Assembly (NCBI GenBank): GCA_016196555.1 | Contig: JACPXL010000022.1 | Location: 1 to 41,835 of the forward strand | DNA from: Candidatus Omnitrophota bacterium | GTDB lineage: Bacteria; Omnitrophota; Omnitrophia; Omnitrophales; Aquincolibacteriaceae | Direction: 5' to 3' | Length of the DNA: 41,835 nt | Part shown: in pieces, positions 1-41,835 of the stretch | Layout: every line of letters begins with the position of its first letter | Position numbering within the stretch: position 1 is the stretch's first letter | Notes under the pieces: generated by a model | What the model saw: only the letters and a program-made list of their open reading frames with translations | What the model was told of the DNA's origin: nothing | The model's database searches: none | Made by a program: the position numbers and the translations under genes

Positions 1-311
1 CCCGCGGCTTCGTACTTTTTCACCATATGAATCACATTGGCCGCATTGCCATAGCCCGTGTCGCAATCGCAGACGACCGGAATGACGCAGGCATCGTTGA
101 TGGCGCGCGCCGCATCCAAATTTTCCGTCATAGTCAGGATATTGGCATCCGGCACAGCATGGGCGGTTGATATCTCAAGCCCGCTTGCCCAAACGCCGTC
201 AAAACCCGCGCGCTCGATCAATTTTGCTCCAAGGCCGTGATGCGCGCCAATAATACGCACGATCCTGCGTTTTTCAAAAAGTTCCCGAAGCAGACCGGCT
301 TTTTCGCTCAT
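1..311 (-). CDS. pepM: Phosphoenolpyruvate mutase (PEP phosphomutase), N-terminal part, truncated by the window start
   Basis: Reverse-strand translation MSEKAGLLRELFEKRRIVRIIGAHHGLGAKLIERAGFDGVWASGLEISTAHAVPDANILTMTENLDAARAINDACVIPVVCDCDTGYGNAANVIHMVKKYEA; PepM/isocitrate-lyase family motifs VWASG.E.S, PDANILTMTE, DCDTGYGN. Not in the ORF track because it runs off the edge. Confidence 0.88.
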   Translation of the reverse strand, partial: MSEKAGLLRELFEKRRIVRIIGAHHGLGAKLIERAGFDGVWASGLEISTAHAVPDANILTMTENLDAARAINDACVIPVVCDCDTGYGNAANVIHMVKKYEAA

Positions 312-1022
312 TTAGATATCCATCCCTTTCGGATAGTAATCTTTCTCGTCCTGGATGATGCGGGCCGCATTTTCCGGCCTAAGCAGGGCCAGTTCCTGGC
401 GCGCATCCCCGCCGATATTTTGGCCAAAAGTGATGGCCAGGATACGGCCTAGATTTTTGGGTTCCGGCGAATAAAAAGCATGCGGCACAAAGCCGGGAAT
501 CAGCCAGGAATCGCCTTCGGTAAAAATTTCCTCATGGACTTTGCCCTCCCATTCCCACAAATAGGCAACCGGTCCACCATGCAGCACCTGCGTGTATTGG
601 TGGAAAAAATGCCCGCGGTTTAGGATCACATCTTCGCGGCGATTCAAATGCAGCAGAAGCTCCACCGGTTTGAAATTCGGAAGCGCCTGTGACATGGCAC
701 GGTTCCAGTAACTATATTGTTTGCGGCCCGCACGCTCCTGATCAAAAAAGCAGGCGTCCTTATGACGCAGGATTTTGATGCCGCGCTTCAGGTCATTTTC
801 AAAAGGCAGGAGGTCGCGCACGCTCACGTAAAAATATTTGGCTAAAAGTTCCAACTCACGCCATTCGGGCTTGGCCTTGCCTTTTTCAAGCGCTTTCAGG
901 CGCACTTCAGCAATGCCTGTGCCGCCAGAAACCATGGCAAAAGTGTGTTTGATTTCATTGCGCCAGGCGTGGATCAGCCTGCCGTATTCCAGATAAGGTT
1001 GTGCTGAGGTTCCCTGTATCAT
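312..1022 (-). CDS. mpnS: Methylphosphonate synthase-like non-haem Fe(II) oxygenase (HEPD/MPnS/HppE family: N-terminal helical domain plus cupin)
   Basis: 236 aa. N135-R-G-H138-FFH-Q142 and I175-PGFVP-H181; Q at H+4 and I at H-6 match the MPnS 2-His-1-Gln arrangement rather than the HEPD/HppE Glu ligands. Stop codon abuts the pepM start (TAAATG). Confidence 0.72.
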   Translation of the reverse strand: MIQGTSAQPYLEYGRLIHAWRNEIKHTFAMVSGGTGIAEVRLKALEKGKAKPEWRELELLAKYFYVSVRDLLPFENDLKRGIKILRHKDACFFDQERAGRKQYSYWNRAMSQALPNFKPVELLLHLNRREDVILNRGHFFHQYTQVLHGGPVAYLWEWEGKVHEEIFTEGDSWLIPGFVPHAFYSPEPKNLGRILAITFGQNIGGDARQELALLRPENAARIIQDEKDYYPKGMDI

Positions 1023-1043: not shown

Positions 1044-1814
1044 TCATCTTGAGCTTTTATTCTGCCGCCAAAGAGCGGCAAGATTTTGAAAATCCTGCAG
1101 GGTGTCGATTTCGCGCCACCGGCCTTCGACCTGATGGCATTTTATGCGCACTCCTTGATCGGTTAAGTGTTGCAGCATGTCGGTCACATAAGCTTTTTCA
1201 AACGCCGCGGCGCGCTGAAAAGCGCGTCCTGCAAAATTACGGTATGCCTCTTCGTAACGTTCTTTGAATTGCCGGGCCCCGGCCCGGCTCAATTTCAGCA
1301 TGCCAATAAATTCCGCGTGGACCGGCCCCGTCTCCCTGGAAATCTTTCCAATACGCCGAACGTATTCCCCACCAGCCATCTCTACTGTCTCAGCTTCCGA
1401 TACGGGATGGTCGCTGCGTCCGTTATAGGCTTCGCGCCAGTTGGTATCCACGGCAATCACCATTTCTCCGGATGCGCGCGTCAAAGCAGCCGGGATGGAT
1501 GGCTCAAACCAGATGTCGGAATAAGAAATCAATAAATCATCGTCAAATTCAGCCGAGGCCTTCATTAACGATCCTAAGATGTTATTGCGCTCAAAATCCC
1601 GGTTCCAGACATAACGCACGTCCTGGCGCGTGAATTTATCCCCCTGGTAGCCGCGGACAACCACAATATCACGGATGCCGCACTGTCGAAATACCTTGAG
1701 TTGTTCCTCAAAAAGCGTTCGTCCCTGGGTGGCAATGGCAAGGCACTTGGGTAATTCACGCGTCATAGGAAGCAGCCGTTTGCCGATGCCTGCCGCAATC
1801 AAAATTACTTTCAT
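1044..1814 (-). CDS. pntC: PntC/LicC-like phosphonate (choline-phosphate type) cytidylyltransferase; listed ORF extends to a GTG at 1829
   Basis: MKVILIAAGIGKRLLPMTRELPKCL nucleotidyltransferase signature; YNGRSDHPVSEAETVE, GKISRETGPVHAEFIGMLKLS; immediately upstream of mpnS and pepM. Confidence 0.72.
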   Translation of the reverse strand: MKVILIAAGIGKRLLPMTRELPKCLAIATQGRTLFEEQLKVFRQCGIRDIVVVRGYQGDKFTRQDVRYVWNRDFERNNILGSLMKASAEFDDDLLISYSDIWFEPSIPAALTRASGEMVIAVDTNWREAYNGRSDHPVSEAETVEMAGGEYVRRIGKISRETGPVHAEFIGMLKLSRAGARQFKERYEEAYRNFAGRAFQRAAAFEKAYVTDMLQHLTDQGVRIKCHQVEGRWREIDTLQDFQNLAALWRQNKSSR

Positions 1815-1918
1815 AAATTCTTTAACCACAAATGGTTGGGGAGATGACCGGGATAAATCAAATCAGCACTCATCGCCACATAAACCGTCTTTCTTTTGGA
1901 TTTTGATCCCTTATTCAT
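1811..1918 (-). pseudogene. 35-codon remnant of the N-terminus of a PepM-associated cytidylyltransferase (TagD/glycerol-3-P cytidylyltransferase-like) domain
   Basis: Reverse-strand translation of a sub-60-aa ORF: MNKGSKSKRKTVYVAMSADLIYPGHLPNHLWLKNL*. VYVAMSADLI(H)PGHL is the first strand and HxGH motif of the nucleotidyltransferase domain found with PEP mutases; the rest is absent. The stop overlaps the pntC ATG (ATGA). Confidence 0.6.
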
Positions 1919-1922
1919 TTTG

Positions 1923-4028
1923 TTATCCCTCGAAGAAATCCGCATGATCTTTTTCCGGAGAACCCTGAGAACGATAAAGCCCCTTATCCTCGATCACTTT
2001 TCGAAATCGTTTGATCTGTTCTTCATAAGCCGGGTCCTCAGGAAAAAGGATTTTTCCCGAAGAAATTTCTTTAATTTCCTCCTGCAAACAATTTCCATTT
2101 TTTAATCCTTCTAATATTCGTTTGTATTCATAGCCATCACCTATAATCCGGCATTGATAATTGCCGGCAAAAATCATTTCTGAAATCGCTTGTTTTTTCC
2201 CCTGAAATTTCCCCTGTCGGTCGGGGAGAAAACTCCGGGAATAAGGACTCGGCTTGGAAGAAACGCCGGCCAAATCCGCCACCGTCGGATACAAATCAAC
2301 GCAGGTTTCAACAAAACCCGAGATTTCTTTTTTGTGTGTTTCTTTAAGCCAGGGGCATCGCATCAGCAAAGGAACCGAAAGCCTCTGCTCTGATAAATGC
2401 TTTTTTGCCCAAGTATCGATCCCTTGATCCATAGGAAGATTCACCCCATGGTCCGCCGTGAGGATAACAGCCGTACGACCCCCTAATGGGGTTCTTTCTA
2501 TGTATCCCAGCAATGATTCCAAAACAAAATCAAGTTCTGCAATTTTGTTGGTATAAACGGTGTTGTAAAAATGTTCTTCCTCGCTTTTTTTGCCTGATTC
2601 GGCTTTTCGAAGAATGTCCGCCGACTCATCGCGCAGCATTGAAGTTCCGAACCAACAGAATGGCGACTCTTGCTTGTTCGATAATCTCATGTCCAAATAA
2701 TGCAGAAATAAAAATTTGTTTTCGTCCGGGTGAGTGTGCAACATTTCAAGGGCCTTGGAGGTCACGTCCCTGGCAGTTGTTTTGCCTTCCGAAAAGATGA
2801 ACCTTTCGTATCCCCTTTCATGCCCGTATAAATGCGAGGACCGGGGATGGGTGGAATAGGCAAAAGTATAATAACCGGCTCGCTGAAGAATTTCCGCCAA
2901 AGTATCCACATTTTCAGGAAGACGTTTGATTTTGCTGTAATGAGGATTGACGATACGGTGATGGGAAGAATAAAGAGAAGTCGGAAAACTTGCAAAAGTG
3001 GGAAGCGTCCACTCCCCTTGCGTATAAGCTTGATGATAAATCGTATAATCCTTAAAAAACCGGTCGATGAAAGGCGTTTTTACTTTTCCGCCGTATAGCC
3101 CAATCATATCGGTACGCAAACCATCGACAATAATAACAATCACGTTTTTTTGCTGCGTCCCGGAAATTATGGGTGCTATGCGGGGTGAAAAATAAACCAA
3201 ACCGTTGCCTCGGAAATTTAATCGCACTTTGGATATTTTCCCGCTTGAAGAGCTATTTGAGAAATCAAGAAAGTCATTCCAGTCACGGCATAACGAATTC
3301 GTCTTTTTTTTCAAGACCAAGGCATCATCAAAAAAAACTTCTATCTCATCTTCAGCAGAAGATGTTTTTAAGACAAAAATGCCAAGCTGAAATTGTTTGG
3401 TTTCAAAAGACTGCGCGGCGGACAATTCTATTTCCCCGCCTTTATTTTCAATGATATTTCTAAGCTCGCCGTGCATTCTCTTTTTAAAGACTTTCGCATT
3501 GGGATCAAGCTTCCAACTTTTAAGAAAATGAGCGTCAGCTTTTAATTTTGTTTCAAACTGCTCTGGGCGGGATGGCCGAATCGTCCGGCCAGACTTTTTG
3601 GAAAGTTCAAAGAATTTCAGATAGTTTAAAAAAATCATAGAAGAAATTCCCAAATAAGCCCCGGCAAAAGGGAGCAAAATCCAATGCATCTGCCCGGCCG
3701 GTAAAGAGACGGCCAAAGGAATACTCAAAAGCTGTAATAAATGAAAATAGGACCAGCGGCACACTTTTTCCTGAAGCAGCTTTCCATGAAACCGGTGCCC
3801 GTCTTTAAAATTGAAGGACCTTTCGAAAAAGGTCACGGCACTGCCAAGAACGGCAAAATGGATCAATGCGAATAAAAGTGTATTGCCCAAAAGAAGGAAA
3901 TGAAACGGCGGCAGGCCGTGTTGATGAATCACGAAAAGATTAATGCCGAGCGTCGACAAAAATGAAGTCAGCGCAAATCCCATCAAATTTCGCGCATCAC
4001 TTAAGAGATAGCGAACGAGGCTTAACAT
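1923..4028 (-). CDS. Membrane-anchored alkaline phosphatase/sulfatase-superfamily protein (possible phospho- or phosphonotransferase)
   Basis: 701 aa with N-terminal TM helices, then NVIVIIVDGLRTDMIGLYGG...GEWTLPTFASFPTSLYSSHH...LTADHGVNL; Thr341 at the nucleophile position. Confidence 0.7.
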   Translation of the reverse strand: MLSLVRYLLSDARNLMGFALTSFLSTLGINLFVIHQHGLPPFHFLLLGNTLLFALIHFAVLGSAVTFFERSFNFKDGHRFHGKLLQEKVCRWSYFHLLQLLSIPLAVSLPAGQMHWILLPFAGAYLGISSMIFLNYLKFFELSKKSGRTIRPSRPEQFETKLKADAHFLKSWKLDPNAKVFKKRMHGELRNIIENKGGEIELSAAQSFETKQFQLGIFVLKTSSAEDEIEVFFDDALVLKKKTNSLCRDWNDFLDFSNSSSSGKISKVRLNFRGNGLVYFSPRIAPIISGTQQKNVIVIIVDGLRTDMIGLYGGKVKTPFIDRFFKDYTIYHQAYTQGEWTLPTFASFPTSLYSSHHRIVNPHYSKIKRLPENVDTLAEILQRAGYYTFAYSTHPRSSHLYGHERGYERFIFSEGKTTARDVTSKALEMLHTHPDENKFLFLHYLDMRLSNKQESPFCWFGTSMLRDESADILRKAESGKKSEEEHFYNTVYTNKIAELDFVLESLLGYIERTPLGGRTAVILTADHGVNLPMDQGIDTWAKKHLSEQRLSVPLLMRCPWLKETHKKEISGFVETCVDLYPTVADLAGVSSKPSPYSRSFLPDRQGKFQGKKQAISEMIFAGNYQCRIIGDGYEYKRILEGLKNGNCLQEEIKEISSGKILFPEDPAYEEQIKRFRKVIEDKGLYRSQGSPEKDHADFFEG

Positions 4029-4606
4029 CGATCATCTCCCTGATGAGTCAAAAAATCTAAAGCGCGCGTTAGAAGCAAGGACGAACATTCTTCAACCGAT
4101 TTGTTTGCCGTATCCAAAATAAGATCAGGATGGTTTGATTTCTCGTATGGCTCCGTCACTCCGATAAAATTCTCATAAAGGCCTTCAAAGGCTTTGCGGT
4201 AATGGCCTTTATAATCCCGCTTGGCACAAATTTCCGCCGGACAGTCCAGATAAACCTCCATAAACCGGCCGATTAATTTCCGGGCCTGATCGCGCAATTC
4301 TTTAACATGAGAAATTACGCAGACAATCGCGATTTTCCCATTTTGATTCGATTGGAATGCCAGTTCCGCCAATTTCAAAGTGACGACATTGCGATCTCCG
4401 GTAGAAAATCCGTATTGTTTATCAAGCCGCTTGCGCACCTCTTCACCGTCTAAAAGATCGATGGGAGTAATTCCCGCCGCCATTAAACTATCTCGTAAAT
4501 TTTTACCCATCGTGCTTTTGCCCGACGCCGAAAGCCCTGTAATCCAAATCGTTCCGGCCGTTTTCACTTTAAGTTGTTTTTTCGGTTTTGACTGTTGTCG
4601 CATCAT
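4022..4606 (-). CDS. cysC: Adenylylsulfate kinase-like protein
   Basis: GTIWITGLSASGKST P-loop, DGEEVRKRL, GFSTGDR, RDYKGHYRKAFEGLYENFIGVTEPYE...PDLILDT. Confidence 0.75.
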   Translation of the reverse strand: MMRQQSKPKKQLKVKTAGTIWITGLSASGKSTMGKNLRDSLMAAGITPIDLLDGEEVRKRLDKQYGFSTGDRNVVTLKLAELAFQSNQNGKIAIVCVISHVKELRDQARKLIGRFMEVYLDCPAEICAKRDYKGHYRKAFEGLYENFIGVTEPYEKSNHPDLILDTANKSVEECSSLLLTRALDFLTHQGDDRC

Positions 4607-5552
4607 GTTTGATCGCCCATTGAATGGTGCGCTTCATCCCTTCGTTAAAATTTACTTTCGGTTCCCAACCGAGTGTTTTACGGACTAATGAAATATCGGC
4701 CACCATGTTCTTTTGATCTCCCGGACGAAGCGGTGCGTAGCGAACGGGATAATCCTTGCGTGATTTTCCGAAAGCTTCCAGAACCGTATCGGCCAGACGG
4801 TTAATGGAATGCGGCACACCGGTACCAAGATTAAAAACACGCCCGTCAGCTTCAGAAGAATTCAAAGCCAGAATCCAAGCTCGAGCCACATCTTCAATAT
4901 GAACAAAATCCCGGGTTTGCTCCCCATCGGAATGAATCGTGATCGGTTCTCCGCGGAGGAGATTACCAATAAATATTCCCGCCACGCCTTGATAAGGATT
5001 GTTAAGTCCTTGGCGCTCGCCATAAACATTGAACATGCGAAAAGAAGTCACGAAAAATTTAAAGTCGAGATCATTTCGCAGCGCCGTGGCATGAACGTAT
5101 CGTTCCGCCGCATATTTGGTAATTCCATAATACGAAACGGGTTTTAGAATTTCGTTTTCGTGAATAGGAACTTTTTCGGGAAAACCATAAGTGGTCATGG
5201 AACTGGCAAATAAAAGCCGGGAGACTTTATATTGCAAACATTTGCTTAGAACGTTCAATGTGCCATGAACATTCACTTCAAGATCATTTTTAGGATCGGT
5301 GAAAGAAAGGATGGTCGAGGTCTGGCCTGCGATATGAAAGACGGCATCGACTCCTTTTCGAAAGACTTTATCCAATTCTGCCGAGTTTCGGACATCGGCT
5401 TTGTAATATTCCGCTTGCGGATTTACGTTATAGGCAAAACCCGTCGACTCATTATCCAGGCAGACTACATGCCAGCCCGAAGCCAACAACTTGTCCGCAA
5501 GATGACTTCCGATAAACCCCGCTCCCCCCGTAATCAAAACCCGTTTTTTCAT
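4569..5552 (-). CDS. NAD-dependent epimerase/dehydratase (UDP-glucose 4-epimerase-like)
   Basis: MKKRVLITGGAGFIGSHLADKLL, YYGITKYAAERY (YxxxK), NLGTG, RPGD. Confidence 0.82.
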   Translation of the reverse strand: MKKRVLITGGAGFIGSHLADKLLASGWHVVCLDNESTGFAYNVNPQAEYYKADVRNSAELDKVFRKGVDAVFHIAGQTSTILSFTDPKNDLEVNVHGTLNVLSKCLQYKVSRLLFASSMTTYGFPEKVPIHENEILKPVSYYGITKYAAERYVHATALRNDLDFKFFVTSFRMFNVYGERQGLNNPYQGVAGIFIGNLLRGEPITIHSDGEQTRDFVHIEDVARAWILALNSSEADGRVFNLGTGVPHSINRLADTVLEAFGKSRKDYPVRYAPLRPGDQKNMVADISLVRKTLGWEPKVNFNEGMKRTIQWAIKHDATTVKTEKTT

Positions 5553-6859
5553 CGTTTCAATTCCTTTTCTCTCTTCAATGAATGATCCGGAACATTCATT
5601 TTTGTTTTTGCCAATCGTTCAAGTTCAGCCACGATTTGTTTGGCGGCAACGTCCGATTTAAAATTTTTCTCGTACGTTTCGCGCCCCTTAAGTTGAAGCC
5701 GTTTGCGCAATTCGACATCTCGAACCACACGAACGATCTGACGCGCAAGTTCTTCCCCGGTCGAACCAAGCAGACAATTTTCTTCGTGAACAAGTTCTGG
5801 AATATTGGCCGATTCATAAGTATGCGCGACCAGACAACAACCAAAAGAAAGCCCTGTGACAATGCGAAGTCGAATCCCAAGTAAAATGGGCGTCGGACAT
5901 AATTGAATGTCCGCAGATAAAAATTCATCATCAGCTGGGCGAATGGCCCCCGTGATCTTGACGGACGGATGGTCTAAACGCTGCGCTAAATCTTTGGAGA
6001 GCGTCCCTCCCCCGACAATCCGAACTTCAAATCCATCCTTCCCCAATTCTTTTTCTAAAACTGGCAAAATTTGCTCTGCAAATAAACGAATCCCAGCGTT
6101 TGTCGAAGTCGCCGTCACATTACTTGGCCCCAGAAGAATTCTTGGTTTAATTCTTGAGGGAATTGCTTTACGTTTTTGCCAAACATTCTCACCCACCGCA
6201 TCGACGATAGGACTTTTTAAATAAGCGCATTGATTCGCACCATGTTTTCTTAGCCAGGCGGCATCATAAGCTCCGAAGCATCCCACGGATTCGCAATGAT
6301 TGAGAAACCAGGCCATCAAGCGCGGCGTATGCAGATTATTTCTGAACGTGTTCAGGGTTTGGCCCAAATAAGAAAAACTAAAAGAAAACTTCGTTCGCTG
6401 CCATCGGTAAAAATTCGGCCAATGCCAAAGATCCGCCGTGCCTGCCATGCGCGGAACTAAATTCAAACCGTGCGTTGCCGCGATTGCCGTGTAGTGATAA
6501 GCAAAAATAACGTCCGGCTGCAAGCCTTCGAGCAAGCTCTTCATTTTTAAAACGAGCTTAAAGGAAGGAAACAAGGCTTCAACATCGGGCCAAATCAAAC
6601 GTTTCCAAGGCCTAATCCATTTTTCATAAAAAGATTGCGCTTTCTCTTCAGGCACTTGAACTAAAAAAAATTCAACATTTCTCGCCGCTAGCCATTGCTT
6701 GGATTCTTCGACTCCCTCAGGCTCTAGAGAATCGCTTAAGCAGTAATAAGTCACTTGATGACCCGCCTTCAAAAGCTCTTCCAATACCCCCCAGCAGGTC
6801 ATAGGAGCACCGCTCGTACTTGAATGAGGCGGGCAGTGAGCAATAAAGGCGACTTTCAT
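5549..6859 (-). CDS. Glycosyltransferase, GT4/GT1-like (GT-B fold); start moved to MKVAFIAHCPP
   Basis: MKVAFIAHCPPHSSTSGAPMTCWGVLEELLKAGHQVTYY; C-terminal HEENCLLGSTGEELARQIVRVV...; the downstream start is compatible with the stop of the upstream gene at 6862. Confidence 0.7.
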   Translation of the reverse strand: MKVAFIAHCPPHSSTSGAPMTCWGVLEELLKAGHQVTYYCLSDSLEPEGVEESKQWLAARNVEFFLVQVPEEKAQSFYEKWIRPWKRLIWPDVEALFPSFKLVLKMKSLLEGLQPDVIFAYHYTAIAATHGLNLVPRMAGTADLWHWPNFYRWQRTKFSFSFSYLGQTLNTFRNNLHTPRLMAWFLNHCESVGCFGAYDAAWLRKHGANQCAYLKSPIVDAVGENVWQKRKAIPSRIKPRILLGPSNVTATSTNAGIRLFAEQILPVLEKELGKDGFEVRIVGGGTLSKDLAQRLDHPSVKITGAIRPADDEFLSADIQLCPTPILLGIRLRIVTGLSFGCCLVAHTYESANIPELVHEENCLLGSTGEELARQIVRVVRDVELRKRLQLKGRETYEKNFKSDVAAKQIVAELERLAKTKMNVPDHSLKREKELKR

Positions 6860-6861
6860 CT

Positions 6862-7926
6862 TTATCCTTTCTTCACGCAAATATTTTGAACAAGGTCTTG
6901 GAAAATATCATCGATCGAACGCGTAATGTCCCAGGAAGGATAATCTGACTTTAAATGTTTTAAATTTGTGATGTAACAAATATGATCGCCGAGGCGCGGA
7001 GTTTCGATATATTCGGTTTTCATTTTTTTATTTATCAATCTTTCGAATCGCGTAATGGCTTCGAGAACTGAAATGCTATTCGCCCGTCCCCCGCCTAAAT
7101 TGTAAACAGCCCCGGCTTTTGGATTTTCATAAAAGGCCAAAAAAGCCGTGCACACATCATGAGCATGAATATTGTCACGAACTTGTTTGCCCTTATAACC
7201 ATAAATCCGATAAATGCGATCTTCACTAATGGCACGCGCAACATAAGCAAGAAATCCATGATTTTCGGCAGCAGCGTGGCGGGACCCTGTCAAACATCCC
7301 CCACGAAAACAAACCGTCGGCATACCAAAATAACGTCCATACTCTTGGACCATTTGATCAGCGGCTAATTTTGAAGTACCGAAAAGACTATGAAGGCATT
7401 GATCCACGCTGCAAGATTCATCCACACCGTCCCTGTCTTTTGGATTTTCATAATCGTAACGGGTTTTAAGCTCGACAATTGGCAGTTTGTTTGGAATATC
7501 CCCATAAACTTTGTTCGTGCTCATAAAAACAAACGGTGAATCGGGACAATTGCGGCGGGCAGCTTCAAGCAGGTTTAAAGTTCCAAGCGCATTCACTTCG
7601 AAGTCTTCAAAAGGCCGCTCCGCGGCTAAATCATGGGACGGCTGGCCAGCACAATGAATAATCAAATCTGGATGCTGATTACGAATAAGCTTTTCCATAG
7701 CCTCTCGATTTCTTATGTCTAAGTCATGATGCGTAAATCGCCGAGTGGATTCAGAAAGTCTTTTCAAATTTTGAGTCGTATCTCCATCGGGTCCAAAAAA
7801 GATCTTTCGCATATTGTTATCCACACCTTGGATTTCCCAGCCGCGCTCGTCAAAAAAACTCACGGCTTCTGATCCAATGAGTCCACTTGAACCTGTAATG
7901 AGCACTTTTTTCATTTTTGTTCCCAC
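6862..7926 (-). CDS. NAD-dependent epimerase, CDP-paratose 2-epimerase-like
   Basis: KKVLITGSSGLIGSEAVSFF, HCAGQPSHDLAAERPFEDFEVNALGTLNLLEA, DESCSVDQCLHSLFGTSKLAADQMVQEYGRYFGMPTVCFRGGCLTG. Confidence 0.72.
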   Translation of the reverse strand: MGTKMKKVLITGSSGLIGSEAVSFFDERGWEIQGVDNNMRKIFFGPDGDTTQNLKRLSESTRRFTHHDLDIRNREAMEKLIRNQHPDLIIHCAGQPSHDLAAERPFEDFEVNALGTLNLLEAARRNCPDSPFVFMSTNKVYGDIPNKLPIVELKTRYDYENPKDRDGVDESCSVDQCLHSLFGTSKLAADQMVQEYGRYFGMPTVCFRGGCLTGSRHAAAENHGFLAYVARAISEDRIYRIYGYKGKQVRDNIHAHDVCTAFLAFYENPKAGAVYNLGGGRANSISVLEAITRFERLINKKMKTEYIETPRLGDHICYITNLKHLKSDYPSWDITRSIDDIFQDLVQNICVKKG

Positions 7927-7927
7927 A

Positions 7928-8755
7928 TTAAATAATGTCTGCGAAACTCCGCTCCATCCGTCGGAAATAAATGAGTCCGCCGATCAACAGAGCAAAAACG
8001 GTCAAACTCGAAACGATTAACATTCCGATATCCGGCCTATTTGCGCCCAGAAGCACCCAGCGAAATCCTTCCACAACTCCCGCCATGGGGTTTAATCCGA
8101 ATAAAGGTTTCCATGCATCAGGAACAAGGCTGCTTGGATAAGCAATAGGCGTTGCAAAAAGCCAAAACTGAATTAAAAAAGGCACGATGTACCGCACATC
8201 TCGAAATTGCACATTGAACGCAGAAAGCCATAAACCCACAGCTAAAGAAGAAGCCAAAGTTAAAATTAAAAATAATGGCAGAAAAAAAATAGCGTGCGTA
8301 GGTACGATTCCATAATAAAACATCATCCCAATCAAAACGACAAAAGCGACTGCAAAATCGACAAGCCCAGCCAATATGGCTGAAATGGGAATCACCAAAC
8401 GCGGAAAATAAACTTTCGTGATTAAATTCTGATTGGCAACAAGGCTATTGCTGGACTCCGAAAGCGAATGGGCAAAAAGCTGCCAGGGCAAAAGCGCGCA
8501 ATAAGCAAAAATGGGGTAAGGAATTCCATCGGAAGGAATTTTTGCAAGACGTCCAAAAAAAATACTGAATACAACCATGGTCATAAACGGCTGCAAAATG
8601 GCCCAAGTCGCGCCAAGCGCCGCTTGTTTATAACGGACTTTGATATCCCGCCAGGTAAGAAAATAAAGCAGCTCTCGATATTCCCAAAGCTCTCGCAATT
8701 CGAGAGAGCTCCCGCTTTTAGGAACTGTGATTGATAACGTATTATTTTTTTCCAT
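7928..8755 (-). CDS. wzm: ABC-2 type transporter permease (Wzm/TagG-like polysaccharide exporter)
   Basis: LLYFLTWRDIKVRYKQAALGATWAILQPFMTMVVFSIFFGRLAKIPSDGIPYPIFAYCALLPWQLF; six-TM hydropathy pattern. Confidence 0.83.
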   Translation of the reverse strand: MEKNNTLSITVPKSGSSLELRELWEYRELLYFLTWRDIKVRYKQAALGATWAILQPFMTMVVFSIFFGRLAKIPSDGIPYPIFAYCALLPWQLFAHSLSESSNSLVANQNLITKVYFPRLVIPISAILAGLVDFAVAFVVLIGMMFYYGIVPTHAIFFLPLFLILTLASSLAVGLWLSAFNVQFRDVRYIVPFLIQFWLFATPIAYPSSLVPDAWKPLFGLNPMAGVVEGFRWVLLGANRPDIGMLIVSSLTVFALLIGGLIYFRRMERSFADII

Positions 8756-9608
8756 TGTTCGAACTCGTTTTCACAAGCGCACCAAAATTGGGATTGTTTT
8801 TATGAACCGCCATCGGCACATTTTCGGCAACCGCAAAATCCCAAAAAGCTGTATTCCAGCCAATATCATCCGAAATTAAAATTCCGCCATCCGTCAAATG
8901 CGACCATGCAGCAGTATATTCCCACATCATTTGGTTATAGGTATGGTCCGAATCATGAAAAAAGACTTCCACGTTTCCGAGCCGGTTTAAAAGCGGCATC
9001 AACTCATCGAGAGCATTCCCCTGAATCAAGGTCCAAGCCTTTTTCAATTCCTCGGGGACAAGGAATCCTATTTCAACTCCGTCAGGAAGTGACCAATCCA
9101 TGCTCTGCTCGCCCTTCTTTGCGGAAAGATCCACGGTATAAAGATGCCCTTTATGATTATGATGAATCGCCAGGAGAAAAAGCGCCGACGTCCAACCTGT
9201 CGCACAACCCGTTTCGACAATCACAGAAGGTTGCAAGAAACGGCAGGCCACATAACAAAAAAGTTCAGTGGTCAAACCAACTCCCAATGTCTTTTTCTCG
9301 AAATCCTTATTAAGGACTTTCTTATGCGCCGCGAGCAAATCTTTAAGCGGTTGAAAATTTTTAAGCTCGGTAAAATACTGACGCACCATGGCCTCTGAAA
9401 CATTAAGTGAGAGAGGAAGGATTTTTTTTAAACATTGAGCTGCGTCAGCAATCGCTAGATTCTTACGAACATCCTGCCAAAGGGCCTTACGATTATCTAT
9501 TTGTCCTGAATCAAAAAGTTTTGCGCTTATTTGACGAAGTCCGAAACGTCCCGCCTTAGGGACCACTTCCTGTAAATTCTTCATGAGTGTTTTTTGATTA
9601 GGTGACAT
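8742..9608 (-). CDS. Class I SAM-dependent methyltransferase
   Basis: SVIVETGCATGWTSALFLLAI...LYTVDLS...VEVFFHDSDHTYNQMMWEYTAAWSHLTDGGILISDDIGWN. Confidence 0.7.
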   Translation of the reverse strand: MSPNQKTLMKNLQEVVPKAGRFGLRQISAKLFDSGQIDNRKALWQDVRKNLAIADAAQCLKKILPLSLNVSEAMVRQYFTELKNFQPLKDLLAAHKKVLNKDFEKKTLGVGLTTELFCYVACRFLQPSVIVETGCATGWTSALFLLAIHHNHKGHLYTVDLSAKKGEQSMDWSLPDGVEIGFLVPEELKKAWTLIQGNALDELMPLLNRLGNVEVFFHDSDHTYNQMMWEYTAAWSHLTDGGILISDDIGWNTAFWDFAVAENVPMAVHKNNPNFGALVKTSSNNGKK

Positions 9609-10625
9609 TTAACGCTCGGTTAACATGCGATGAAAAATCGCTTTCACTTCGTCCGGCTTTTTCGTTGAAAAATACCAATCGATTGTCCGGTGCAGCCCAT
9701 CCATGAATTTCATTTTGGGTTCCCAGCCAAGAAGTTTCTTTGCCAATTGATTGTCCGCAACCCGGTTGAGCGGTCCCGTCGGCATATGCGGCTGCAATTT
9801 GATTTCCGCTTTTCGTCCCGTGTACCGCAAAACTTCTTTCACCGCATCGATCACCCGCGTACGCTCCATGGTTCCCAAATTGATAGCCGCTCCGTCATCG
9901 ATTTTTTCACCCGCTAAAATCATTCCGCTGACAATGTCTTTGACATAAGTCCAGTTTCGAATTTGTTCTCCTGTGCCCCAAACCTCAAATGGATCTTGCT
10001 TGATGAAAGCCCGGGCAATCATGGCAATCACGGCGTGATTTTCCACACCGCGTTCTCCGTAAACGGTGAAAAATCGGCACGAAGCCGTTTTCATTTTCCA
10101 ATCTTTGGAGTAAGCGCGCAGAGTCATTTCGCCCATGAGCTTGGCCCATCCATAAAGATTATCCGCATCATAGGGCGGACCGACCATTTCTTCGGTGAGG
10201 TACAATTCCTTTTTTAAATCGGACTGCAAATAAGTGGGATAAACACAGCCTGAGGAGGCATAAACAATTTTTTCGACCTTGGCCTGATAAGCTGCGCGAA
10301 AAACTAGCCCATCCAGCATTAAATTTACACCGCAGGCGGCCTGGTGAAGATCGACATACCCTCGGCCTCCGTGATCTGCGGCCAAGTGAAAAACAACATG
10401 GATTCCCTTCACTGCCGCGCGGGTCACCGTATCATCACGCAAATCACCTTGGCTAAATTCCACCGCGCCTTTGTCAATGTGATGCTGAATATTTTCAAGC
10501 CGGCCGCTTGATAAATCGTCAACCACGCGGATTTTTGCCCCTTTTTCGAGCAATGAGTCCACTAAATGAGATCCAATAAACGAAGCCCCTCCTGTCACCA
10601 AAATCTTTTTGTCTTTCCAATTCAT
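9609..10625 (-). CDS. NAD-dependent epimerase/dehydratase
   Basis: KKILVTGGASFIGSHLVDSLLEKGAKIRVVDDLSSG, HLAADHGGRGYVDLHQAACGVNLMLDGLVFRAA, YGWAKLMGE (YxxxK). Confidence 0.8.
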   Translation of the reverse strand: MNWKDKKILVTGGASFIGSHLVDSLLEKGAKIRVVDDLSSGRLENIQHHIDKGAVEFSQGDLRDDTVTRAAVKGIHVVFHLAADHGGRGYVDLHQAACGVNLMLDGLVFRAAYQAKVEKIVYASSGCVYPTYLQSDLKKELYLTEEMVGPPYDADNLYGWAKLMGEMTLRAYSKDWKMKTASCRFFTVYGERGVENHAVIAMIARAFIKQDPFEVWGTGEQIRNWTYVKDIVSGMILAGEKIDDGAAINLGTMERTRVIDAVKEVLRYTGRKAEIKLQPHMPTGPLNRVADNQLAKKLLGWEPKMKFMDGLHRTIDWYFSTKKPDEVKAIFHRMLTER

Positions 10626-11746
10626 TTCTTGATTCCTCCCACCGCAGTTAAATATTTTTCGAAAATTTGTGTCAGACGACTTATCATGATTTCATAGCTA
10701 TGATGCGTAAGGGTTTTTTGCTGCCCTTGAATAGCGATCTGCTCCCGTTCCACTGCGTGATAAAGATAATGACTCATTTTTTCTAATAGCTCCTCCACGG
10801 TCCGATAAGCCAAGGCTTCTTGACCCTGAACAAAAAAATCGGACAAATTTTGTTTCCAATCGGTGACTAAACACGCCCCGACTCCGGTAGCTTCAAAGAG
10901 TCTCGCGTTATTGGCATATTCCTCTGCCACATCGATATGTGAATTAACGGTCATTTTGCTGGCTGCCAGCACCTCATACATTTCATTTCCCCAAACTTCT
11001 CCCCGCCACGCTTTTCTTAAAGCTGAATTCTTAGGGAGCGTCTCAATACCATAGCCGAACCAGGCCAAGGGATACTGCTGGCATACCTTTTCCAGCAATT
11101 CCACACGGGAACGATGCTCTTTAGAAACGCCGCCGATAAAAGTCACGTCAAATGTCTTCTCGATTTTTGCGGTTTGATTCAAAACCCGCCGGTCAAAGGC
11201 AAGCGGTAAATATTCTGCGTTCATATTCCGGGAGCGAAATAGCGGAATAAAATGCGGGAAGGAACTCACCACCAAGTCCATGGTCTGATAATTACGTCTC
11301 TGCAAAAGCGGTGATGCCATCTGACAAGCCATCAAGCGCGCGTATTTCTTCAGCTCACCGATCATGTTATCCGTAAACAAATTTTGCTCCTGGACAAGGA
11401 CCACGTCCGGCTCAATGCTTCGAATTTGTTCGCGCACAATCTCGAATCTCCAATCGAGTCCCAATAAATAATTCCCGGCGTTCGACATGAGCTGAGGAAA
11501 GGCCGTAATTTTTAATCCATTTTCTTTGGCCCATTGAAGCTGCGTGCGCTCATCATTGACAACAAATTCCTGCGCCTCATGCCCCAATTGTTTGAAGTAA
11601 TAAGAATAAGAATCGAAAGTTCCGAAACGTTCCTGCATCAAAGCATGGCGCTGTTCTTCAAAGCAAGAATTCGATGTGAGAGGATGGTCAGCATGATACT
11701 TTTGCAAAAACTTTGGATAGTAGTAATCCAGAATGATAATCTTCAT
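10622..11746 (-). CDS. CgeB-like glycosyltransferase (GT-B); start moved to MKIIILDYYYPKF
   Basis: FDVTFIGGVSKEHRSRVELLEKV...NNARLFEATGVGACLVTDWKQNLSDFF...GQEALAYRTVEELLEKMSHYL. Confidence 0.65.
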   Translation of the reverse strand: MKIIILDYYYPKFLQKYHADHPLTSNSCFEEQRHALMQERFGTFDSYSYYFKQLGHEAQEFVVNDERTQLQWAKENGLKITAFPQLMSNAGNYLLGLDWRFEIVREQIRSIEPDVVLVQEQNLFTDNMIGELKKYARLMACQMASPLLQRRNYQTMDLVVSSFPHFIPLFRSRNMNAEYLPLAFDRRVLNQTAKIEKTFDVTFIGGVSKEHRSRVELLEKVCQQYPLAWFGYGIETLPKNSALRKAWRGEVWGNEMYEVLAASKMTVNSHIDVAEEYANNARLFEATGVGACLVTDWKQNLSDFFVQGQEALAYRTVEELLEKMSHYLYHAVEREQIAIQGQQKTLTHHSYEIMISRLTQIFEKYLTAVGGIKK

Positions 11747-11866
11747 GAAAAATTTTTCCGGTCCGTCTTCATGAATAAAAAGCTCATGCAACGCCCCGAC
11801 TTGTCCGATCTATTTGATTGAGGTTGTTGTTTTATTAACTATCAAACAATAACAGAAACTAATAAA

Positions 11867-11895
11867 AATATACAATAACATGTAACTAATATCAA
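11867..11895 (-). promoter_or_regulatory. Candidate sigma70-like promoter for the minus-strand glycan operon
   Basis: On the minus strand TTGATA (11895-11890), 17 nt spacer, TATATT (11872-11867), in the AT-rich divergent intergenic region. Confidence 0.4.
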
Positions 11896-11931
11896 TATTA
11901 TCGACAAAAAAAGTTTAGACTGTAACTCTTT

Positions 11932-12738
11932 ATGACGCCTAGTATTACAATCATTATGCCCTCCTATAACCAGGCAGGCTTTATCAAAGAATCGATAGAA
12001 TCGGTCCTCCGCCAGACTTTTCCCTCTTTTGAACTGCTGGTGATCGATGGGGGCAGCACCGACGGAACCGTCGAAATTCTTCGAAAAATTCAGGATTCCC
12101 GCCTCCGCTGGATCTCAGAAAAGGACAAGGGGCAAGCAGATGCCATCAATAAGGGATTCAAAATGGCTTCGGGAAATATTCTGGCTTGGCTGAACGCCGA
12201 TGATCTTTACTTCCCTAACGCTTTAACGACTGTAGGAAATTTTTTCGCCCAACACCCCCAGACCCTTTGGGCCATCGGTCAATGCACGATTATCAATGAG
12301 CATGGAAAGGAAATCCGAAAATGGGTCAGCGCTTATAAATCCTGGCGCCTTAGCCAATATTCCTATTCCGCTCTTTTAAGTGAAAATTTCATTCCTCAAA
12401 TGAGTGTTTTCTTCCGCAAGGATGCCATTGCCAAAGTCGGCGGCGGGGTCGACGAAAATTTACATTACGCGATGGATTATGATCTGTGGCTGCGTTTAGG
12501 AAAACAATTTGAGCCGGGCTTTATTCCCGAGCCGGTTGCAAAATTCCGGATGTATGCGGCCACAAAATCAATCACCGGTTTTCACCGGCAATTTCAGGAG
12601 GATTACGAAGTAGGAAAAAAATACTCCGGCAATGCTTTTTGGCCTGTTTTTTTTCATGGAATTAACCGTCTCAAAATTGTTACAATCTACCAGCTTTTGG
12701 CGCTCTTCCGGAAATTCGGCCGGCCGCCTCGCAATTAA
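11932..12738 (+). CDS. Glycosyltransferase family 2
   Basis: PSITIIMPSYNQAGFIKESIESVLRQTFPSFELLVIDGGSTDGTVEIL...GNILAWLNADDLYFPNA. Confidence 0.87.
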   Translation: MTPSITIIMPSYNQAGFIKESIESVLRQTFPSFELLVIDGGSTDGTVEILRKIQDSRLRWISEKDKGQADAINKGFKMASGNILAWLNADDLYFPNALTTVGNFFAQHPQTLWAIGQCTIINEHGKEIRKWVSAYKSWRLSQYSYSALLSENFIPQMSVFFRKDAIAKVGGGVDENLHYAMDYDLWLRLGKQFEPGFIPEPVAKFRMYAATKSITGFHRQFQEDYEVGKKYSGNAFWPVFFHGINRLKIVTIYQLLALFRKFGRPPRN

Positions 12739-40634: not shown

Positions 40635-41835
40635 TTATTCGATCCAAGCCTGGACCACAGCACTAGGGGCTCGTCCTTCTTCTTTGAGCTCTTCTTTAAT
40701 GTTCATGGCATCTTTAATGGCCAGCAAGTAAGATTTCAACTCTTCGAGTTTGCTGTCCACAACCGGCCGATACGCACCCTCTTCGGCCGTAAGTTTTTCA
40801 ACTTGAGAACCCACGATTCCGATAGATTCCGCACTCTTATTCACGGCTTCCACAAGGGTGTTAATCAAATCTGCAGCAACCTCTCCTTCACCCGTAGCTT
40901 TCTCTTCAACTTGTGCGCTTACATTTTTCAAATCTTCAAGCAAGCTCTTAAGACGATCGACTCCTGCGGCGATTGACTCATGTCCACCCTCCGCTCCAAC
41001 TTCAGACCGCATATCTTGAACTTCTTGTAAGATCGTCGCTGCCGTACCATCAAGATTTGCCAAAGTATCGGGAAGACCTGCGATCTTTCCAAATAATGTT
41101 GTCGTTGAAGTTTTAGTATCGGTTGAACTCCCAATTTTTCCGTCAATTCCTTTCAATCTGCCGAACACTGACGAAACTGTTCCCGCATCGGTCGTTAATC
41201 CGAGCAGCGACTTGACATCATTGGCCAAGGCCTTATTCGCTGCAATTCTTCCGAAGAGTGTGGATGCGGTTGATAAATCATTGTTGGATCCTAAGGCCGC
41301 TTTCATTTCATCCAATTTTGTAGCAAGACTCGCAGTCGAACTACTCGTGGAGAGCGTAGAAACAATGGCATTAACTTCTGCTATTTTCCCAAACAAAGTG
41401 TTTGCCGTTGATAAATCGGTGTTTGTTCCCATCATCGTGTTGATCGTCTGGGTTGCCGTAAGTGTTGTCGTAAGATTGGTCGCTATGGCATCAATGCGTC
41501 CACTCAACGTTTTAATGTCATCCCATTTAATTCCTGTAGTACTCATTTTTGAAATATCAACCCAATTGATATGGGATTGGGTCTGTCCCGCTATATCAGT
41601 CCAATTCATCCCTGCGCCGGTCATGAGCGCCAGATCATTCCAGTTCACTCCACCTTTCGACATTGATTGAAGGTCAGTCCAATTCACGCCCGCGGTTGAA
41701 AGCACTGCGATATCCGACCAATTCACGCCTGCTTCTGATAAGCGGTCGATTTCAGCCCAATTAATTCCGGCTCGTGAAAGGGCCTGAATATTGTCCCAAT
41801 TGACATTGATCTTTGACATCGCGGAAAGATCAGAC
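40635..41835 (-). CDS. Repeat-rich coiled-coil protein of unknown function, N-terminus beyond window end
   Basis: Frame remains open past the listed ATG at 41819 (...SDLSAMSKINVNW); 13-aa NW repeats, then TLFGKI repeats, then helical/coiled C-terminus. Confidence 0.75.
   Translation of the reverse strand, partial: SDLSAMSKINVNWDNIQALSRAGINWAEIDRLSEAGVNWSDIAVLSTAGVNWTDLQSMSKGGVNWNDLALMTGAGMNWTDIAGQTQSHINWVDISKMSTTGIKWDDIKTLSGRIDAIATNLTTTLTATQTINTMMGTNTDLSTANTLFGKIAEVNAIVSTLSTSSSTASLATKLDEMKAALGSNNDLSTASTLFGRIAANKALANDVKSLLGLTTDAGTVSSVFGRLKGIDGKIGSSTDTKTSTTTLFGKIAGLPDTLANLDGTAATILQEVQDMRSEVGAEGGHESIAAGVDRLKSLLEDLKNVSAQVEEKATGEGEVAADLINTLVEAVNKSAESIGIVGSQVEKLTAEEGAYRPVVDSKLEELKSYLLAIKDAMNIKEELKEEGRAPSAVVQAWIE
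41073..41435 (-). repeat. Four imperfect ~21-aa protein repeats (G..xDLSTAxTLFGKIA)
   Basis: MMGTNTDLSTANTLFGKIAEV / ALGSNNDLSTASTLFGRIAAN / LLGLTTDAGTVSSVFGRLKGI / KIGSSTDTKTSTTTLFGKIAGL. Confidence 0.8.
41496..41834 (-). repeat. Tandem 39-bp (13-aa) repeats, 8 full units plus a partial one at the edge
   Basis: NVNWDNIQALSRA / GINWAEIDRLSEA / GVNWSDIAVLSTA / GVNWTDLQSMSKG / GVNWNDLALMTGA / GMNWTDIAGQTQS / HINWVDISKMSTT / GIKWDDIKTLSGR, preceded by partial SDLSAMSKI. Confidence 0.92.

Follow-up and report, generated by a model that had tools for sequence, protein, structure and literature searches.

Gene content of the locus

We analysed a stretch of 41,835 nucleotides, here called the window, which is the whole of contig 53 in a 97-contig bin of an Omnitrophota bacterium (86% complete, 5.55% contaminated). 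A polysaccharide operon on its minus strand ends in the order APS kinase, sulfatase-like protein, a short stub ORF, PntC, an HTH-cupin protein and the start of PepM, where the contig ends. The features at this end of the window were as follows.

1923-4028, minus strand: membrane-anchored sulfatase-like protein of 701 aa (alkaline phosphatase superfamily, by domain), directly upstream of the stub
1927-1931, minus strand: SD-like GAGGG, ~9 nt 5' of the stub ATG and within the end of the sulfatase-like gene (sequence, duplex energy)
1811-1918, minus strand: cytidylyltransferase (CyTase) stub ORF (sequence, similarity searches against the PDB and with a CyTase HMM)
1841-1894, minus strand: CyTase-homologous part (domain start) of the stub, about KTVYVAMSADLIYPGHL, with YPGH at the HxGH motif (similarity)
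1815-1840, minus strand: 26-nt interval that must contain the join between the CyTase part and the PntC start (sequence; similarity ends at GHL)
1044-1814, minus strand: intact PntC/LicC-like nucleotidyltransferase (PF12804) lacking an SD-like site (domain, similarity, SD energy)
312-1022, minus strand: MPnS/HEPD-like HTH-cupin protein (PDB matches)
3-311, minus strand: first 103 codons of PepM, cut by the contig end, with an N-terminus that carries no CyTase domain (domain search)

Read directly on the minus strand, positions 1918-1811 translate as MNKGSKSKRKTVYVAMSADLIYPGHLPNHLWLKNL followed by a stop (35 codons). The TAA of the sulfatase-like gene (1925-1923) is followed by CAAA and then by the stub ATG at 1918. 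The stub TGA (1813-1811) shares bases with the PntC ATG (1814-1812) as ATGA. The frame stays open upstream of 1918 and, if read from another ATG at 1945, would comprise 44 codons. Translated in the stub frame, the 26-nt interval corresponds to PNHLWLKNL, less the final base.

The sulfatase-like membrane protein stands beside the APS kinase gene in the polysaccharide operon (1923-4606, minus strand), and the polymer made by the operon may carry both sulfate and phosphonate groups. A search of 47 genomes of the order at E ≤ 1e-30 matched the protein only to itself, so that the synteny route failed. At the far end of the window, a 394-aa ORF (40635-41819, minus strand) starts with repeats of a unit of ~13 residues, (I/V)NWxDI..LS.AG.

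Similarity of the stub to PepM-associated cytidylyltransferases

Among 177,635 distinct PDB sequences, the sole match of the stub at E ≤ 10 was 5x3d (E 0.0055, residues 8-26), whose record is named phosphoenolpyruvate phosphomutase and which we take to be the CyTase domain of Fom1. The product of the Fom1 CyTase domain is CMP-2-hydroxyethylphosphonate. A CyTase HMM was built from 83 domains with the stub excluded, 80 of them from a scan of contigs and three from Omnitrophota fusions. Run against the 1531 window ORFs of at least 15 aa, it scored the stub at 23.6 bits (E 3.3e-6) and the runner-up at 4.8 bits; no further piece of CyTase, whether out of frame downstream or at any other place in the window, exceeded the latter value. 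When the window was shuffled 100 times in 60-bp blocks and searched with default filters, no match reached E 1. Across 384 genomes of the phylum, the best non-self matches were intact CyTases (G070, 5.3e-6; G164, 4.6e-5; G014, 6.6e-4). Apart from weak matches, two of which (G248 and G105) sit in short interrupted frames, this search recovered intact domains that were PepM-type or otherwise CyTase-like, and no homologue shared the tail of the stub. Curated Pfam and NCBIfam models assigned the 35 residues to 0 families. The PDB match, the HMM and the 384-genome search rule out a chance ORF. By these sequence comparisons, residues 8-26 represent a genuine piece of a PF01467 (Fom1-type) CyTase of the kind associated with PepM.

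The stub keeps the first strand and the HxGH region of the Fom1 CyTase (PF01467, 5x3d) and of CyTase-PepM fusions, and it agrees with the signature at the start of these domains, VYVAMSADL(I/V)xPGHL or VYVxMSADLxxxGH(L/I/M). Since 15 of its 17 core residues still match several relatives, the loss looks recent, as far as so few sites may indicate. The first position of the HxGH motif is His in 83/83 relatives and Tyr in the stub, which leaves this nucleotide-binding motif incomplete. Similarity stops at GHL, and the nine residues beyond align with nothing. In all, ~18 of ~140 domain residues remain, and the full domain is absent. Unlike in the CyTase-PepM fusions, the stub is not in frame with PepM, which starts separately at 311, two genes away. 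No conserved stub was seen in 58 relatives. The bin itself gave five PF01467 matches (four above the cut-off and one weak), none of which looks like a full PepM-type CyTase; compared with the stand-alone CyTase of G014, two of them (L003 and L004) matched at ~1e-9, and L001, L002 and L005 had no match at E ≤ 1e-3.

An earlier note, made from the letters of the sequence, had described a 35-codon ORF that starts 4 nt past the preceding stop and whose TGA overlaps the PntC ATG, and the sequence agrees. Its reading of this ORF as a remnant of the PepM-associated cytidylyltransferase is supported by the 5x3d match, the HMM and the 384-genome search, and the similarity check that it had proposed for the 35 residues gave a significant result (the HMM E-value above). 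The replacement of the first catalytic His by Tyr was confirmed against the relatives, as was the unrelated tail, which begins where CyTase similarity ends. The note had also placed a different cytidylyltransferase (PntC) after the stub; this gene is intact and, by its domain content, belongs to PF12804.

Genes downstream of the stub

The NTP_transf_3 domain of PntC scored 40.2 bits, compared with a curated cut-off of 27, and a PepM gene lies two genes downstream. The top PDB match was LicC (1jyk, E 6.2e-11). PF12804 is shared with LicC and with the PntC enzymes of Rice et al. 2019 (PMC6697681). Judged by family membership, PntC now probably supplies the CTP-activation step in place of the CyTase. 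Because an MPnS-like gene adjoins it, we consider 2-hydroxyethyl- or methylphosphonate as likely a substrate as 2-aminoethylphosphonate.

The HTH-cupin protein was closer to methylphosphonate synthase (6b9s, E 3.1e-40) than to hydroxyethylphosphonate dioxygenase (6b9r, E 6.9e-28). Its residues H138, Q142 and H181 fall in matching places of the alignment, at positions that we presume to be those of the iron ligands. The iron triad of MPnS is named 2-His-1-Gln in PMC11978286, where MPnS is also reported from groundwater samples, one of them named C24. The MPnS-like gene was found in 2/384 genomes of the phylum, the genome of the window and G004, a rarity that is expected of an acquired unit. In the literature collection searched, no paper linked methylphosphonate synthase with Omnitrophota. 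We also observed that the record of G014, a genome described below, names the isolate C24_metabat.bin.98.

Intact relatives and comparison loci

The contig scan found 575 stretches that encode CyTase relatives, of which we examined the best 80. The CyTase was fused to PepM in 79 of these 80 loci and stood alone only in G014. This agrees with Rice et al. 2019 (PMC6697681), who report PF12804 fusions in 33.0% of PepM proteins, PF01467 fusions in 23.6% and both in 2.9%. As the same article assigns PntC to PF12804 and the Fom1 CyTase to PF01467, the stub and the intact PntC represent two alternative families of phosphonate activators. A more distant CyTase-like domain (DLFHRGHLEF) is fused to a PepM-like domain in G239 (L049, 8895-10193, minus strand), and a 432-aa frame in G060 (L021) resembles that fusion.

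Four loci are compared with the window below, and three of them were listed as features.

L045, 8124-8558: stand-alone CyTase of G014, Candidatus Omnitrophota JAUYMS010000040 (contig scan)
L095, 5621-5901, plus strand: PntC pseudogene in candidate division WOR-3 (JAGMCL010000109), directly upstream of an intact CyTase-PepM
L111, 3604-6666, plus strand: PntC, MPnS and CyTase-PepM in a row in Phycisphaerae, with the contig ending inside PepM

One counterpart was G004 (L052), a genome of the same family, in which PntC, MPnS, a PepM-PntC fusion, Ppd and an iron alcohol dehydrogenase stand in a row. The first three genes and their order are as in the window, with identities of 54-55% for PntC, 73-75% for the MPnS-like protein and 77% for PepM. 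The two loci differ upstream of PntC, where in G004 the stub is missing and ~110 bp separate PntC from an unrelated gene for a membrane protein; a CyTase HMM gave no CyTase match in this region. As the left edge of the shared part lies at the PntC start in both genomes, we regard PntC-MPnS-PepM as a unit. In G014, from the same family of genomes, the CyTase resembles the stub in being unfused to PepM and within a phosphonate cluster. It differs in being complete (145 aa) with HPGH intact, and its cluster, unlike the window, has a PepM-PntC fusion and lacks MPnS. The G014 contig is that of L066, which also gave a PntC-like match; among the best 80 of the 575 loci, such matches were found, besides L095 and L111, in L066, L125 and L138. 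With PntC as the query, a first scan of genome contigs had given no match.

The WOR-3 locus presents the opposite arrangement. As in the window, a dead cytidylyltransferase remnant lies directly upstream of an intact gene of the other family; unlike in the window, the roles are reversed and the damage is heavier (frameshift and truncation). Its PntC is split between two frames, which encode residues 2-51 and 51-84, and the remainder was not found. Of five PntC sequences compared with this remnant by BLASTP, the PntC of the window was the best match (48%). No other PntC was matched in the L095 genome at E ≤ 1e-6, and no MPnS was matched in the L095 locus. The two opposite remnants suggest exchange between the families, as two cases and not as a census. 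A literature search on nucleotidyltransferase pseudogenes at phosphonate or PepM loci found nothing on point in the titles and opening abstract lines of the papers listed.

Base composition around the junction

The GC content was 0.520 in bases 1-1840 and 0.441 in bases 1841-12000. The best change point was 1796, with a range of 1503-1814 within 2 lnL, and the gain in log-likelihood was 19.8, whereas 1000 block permutations gave at most 10.7. The change point and its whole range lie at or inside PntC and outside the 26-nt interval, so the composition is only an approximate marker of the PntC start. With a GC content of 0.38, the stub groups with the AT-rich sequence. When 150 kb of the genome were sampled, 0/272 overlapping windows of 1840 bp reached 0.520 (mean 0.468, z 2.7), and the GC3 of PntC was equalled or exceeded by 3/107 ORFs. 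We must also note that the block to the left of the junction is below the genome mean (0.44 vs 0.468), so that the contrast is partly its effect. The GC contrast is real and not extreme.

Translation signals

The SD duplex energy was -6.4 before the stub, where the 5% point of the background is -6.6, and -2.2 before PntC. Since the stub keeps an SD-like site and PntC has none, it is plausible from the sequence that, as the earlier note suggested, translation of the stub couples to that of PntC. Weak energies were also calculated for cysC (-2.8), an ABC-transporter gene (-2.5) and a methyltransferase gene (-2.7) of the operon; given three other genes without a good SD, PntC may not require the stub. 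When random junctions upstream of an ATGA start were simulated, ~16% of them showed the ATGA overlap, which makes the overlap alone weak evidence.

Origin of the junction

We think it somewhat more probable than otherwise that a resident gene for CyTase, or for CyTase-PepM, had a PntC-MPnS-PepM cassette attached to its 5' end, and that the stub is the scar of this event and now a translated leader of PntC. In the polysaccharide operon, the resident CyTase gene would have come after the sulfatase-like gene, with an SD-like site of its own. It may have stood alone, as in G014, or, more likely, formed a CyTase-PepM fusion, given that all but one of the best 80 of the 575 loci are fused. The join with the GC-richer cassette would fall in the 26 nt that follow codon 26, the remainder of the old CyTase gene having been lost. 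That the join was made by recombination in the cell, in this direction and recently, is what we infer. With its old SD-like site, and its stop over the SD-less PntC start, the stub would then act as a translated leader that feeds ribosomes to PntC. We prefer the joining of a cassette for two reasons: the GC content breaks at the PntC start or just within it, and the same cassette stands beside a different left neighbour in G004. On the same two grounds, a simple deletion, as in the proposal of the earlier note that an older cytidylyltransferase was deleted and PntC took its place, is one of several pictures and probably not the best. The note had suggested that sister genomes might hold an intact domain at the locus; we found no relative with an intact ancestral CyTase at this site, and the upstream region of PntC in G004 is unrelated.

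The nearest rival is the simple deletion of a stand-alone CyTase. Such a gene would have preceded PntC-MPnS-PepM, become redundant with PntC, exchanged its His for Tyr and shrunk to 26 codons, with nothing imported. We consider this unlikely: although G014 has a stand-alone CyTase beside its PepM-PntC fusion, and PntC, MPnS and CyTase occur together in L111, the GC step near the PntC start would be left unexplained, the stand-alone form is the single exception in the 80 best loci, and in G004 no vestige of a CyTase precedes the shared downstream genes. The most damaging rival is an assembly chimera, in which the last 1.8 kb, of higher GC, would come from another genome and be misjoined inside a CyTase gene, so that no real scar exists. 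The join lies 1.8 kb from the contig end with the GC change nearby, the bin has the contamination given above, and neither the rest of PepM nor a convincing Ppd was found in it. A chimera is nevertheless improbable in our judgement, as the two flanks are parts of one rare pathway and share a strand, and the join falls 26 nt short of a start codon. Moreover, the junction DNA matched itself in the bin and otherwise only segments of 18 and 23 bases, with no second long copy, and the His to Tyr change, which is on the CyTase side, is not explained by a wrong join.

We give even less credence to the stub being itself a selected small protein or leader peptide, whose CyTase likeness reflects origin or coincidence. 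Its SD-like site, the ATGA overlap and the 15 of 17 matching core residues are compatible with selection. Against this, a homologue with the same tail was absent in the 384 genomes, where G248 and G105 gave weak matches in interrupted frames, what is conserved coincides exactly with the beginning of a known enzyme, and the overlap arises by chance at the simulated rate given above.

Implications for phosphonate biosynthesis

Replacement of an enzyme gene that leaves a scar is a kind of event already known. More tentatively, and with more doubt than confidence, we propose that the 5' flank of PepM operons may be a swapping point for two unrelated cytidylyltransferase families, at which CyTase can displace PntC and PntC can displace CyTase. 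The window and the WOR-3 locus would then be opposite outcomes from ancestors that bore both, like the Phycisphaerae locus, and the stub would be a ribosome-loading leader of PntC. If the junction is real in the cell, the locus presents the replacement of an activation enzyme of a phosphonate pathway by an unrelated one, with the scar still readable. It would also support CTP activation as a constant step of phosphonate tailoring for which the enzyme family is exchangeable. The locus further marks a probable pathway in Omnitrophota to methylphosphonate, which may serve as a methane precursor; the synthase-like gene is carried by 2/384 sampled genomes.
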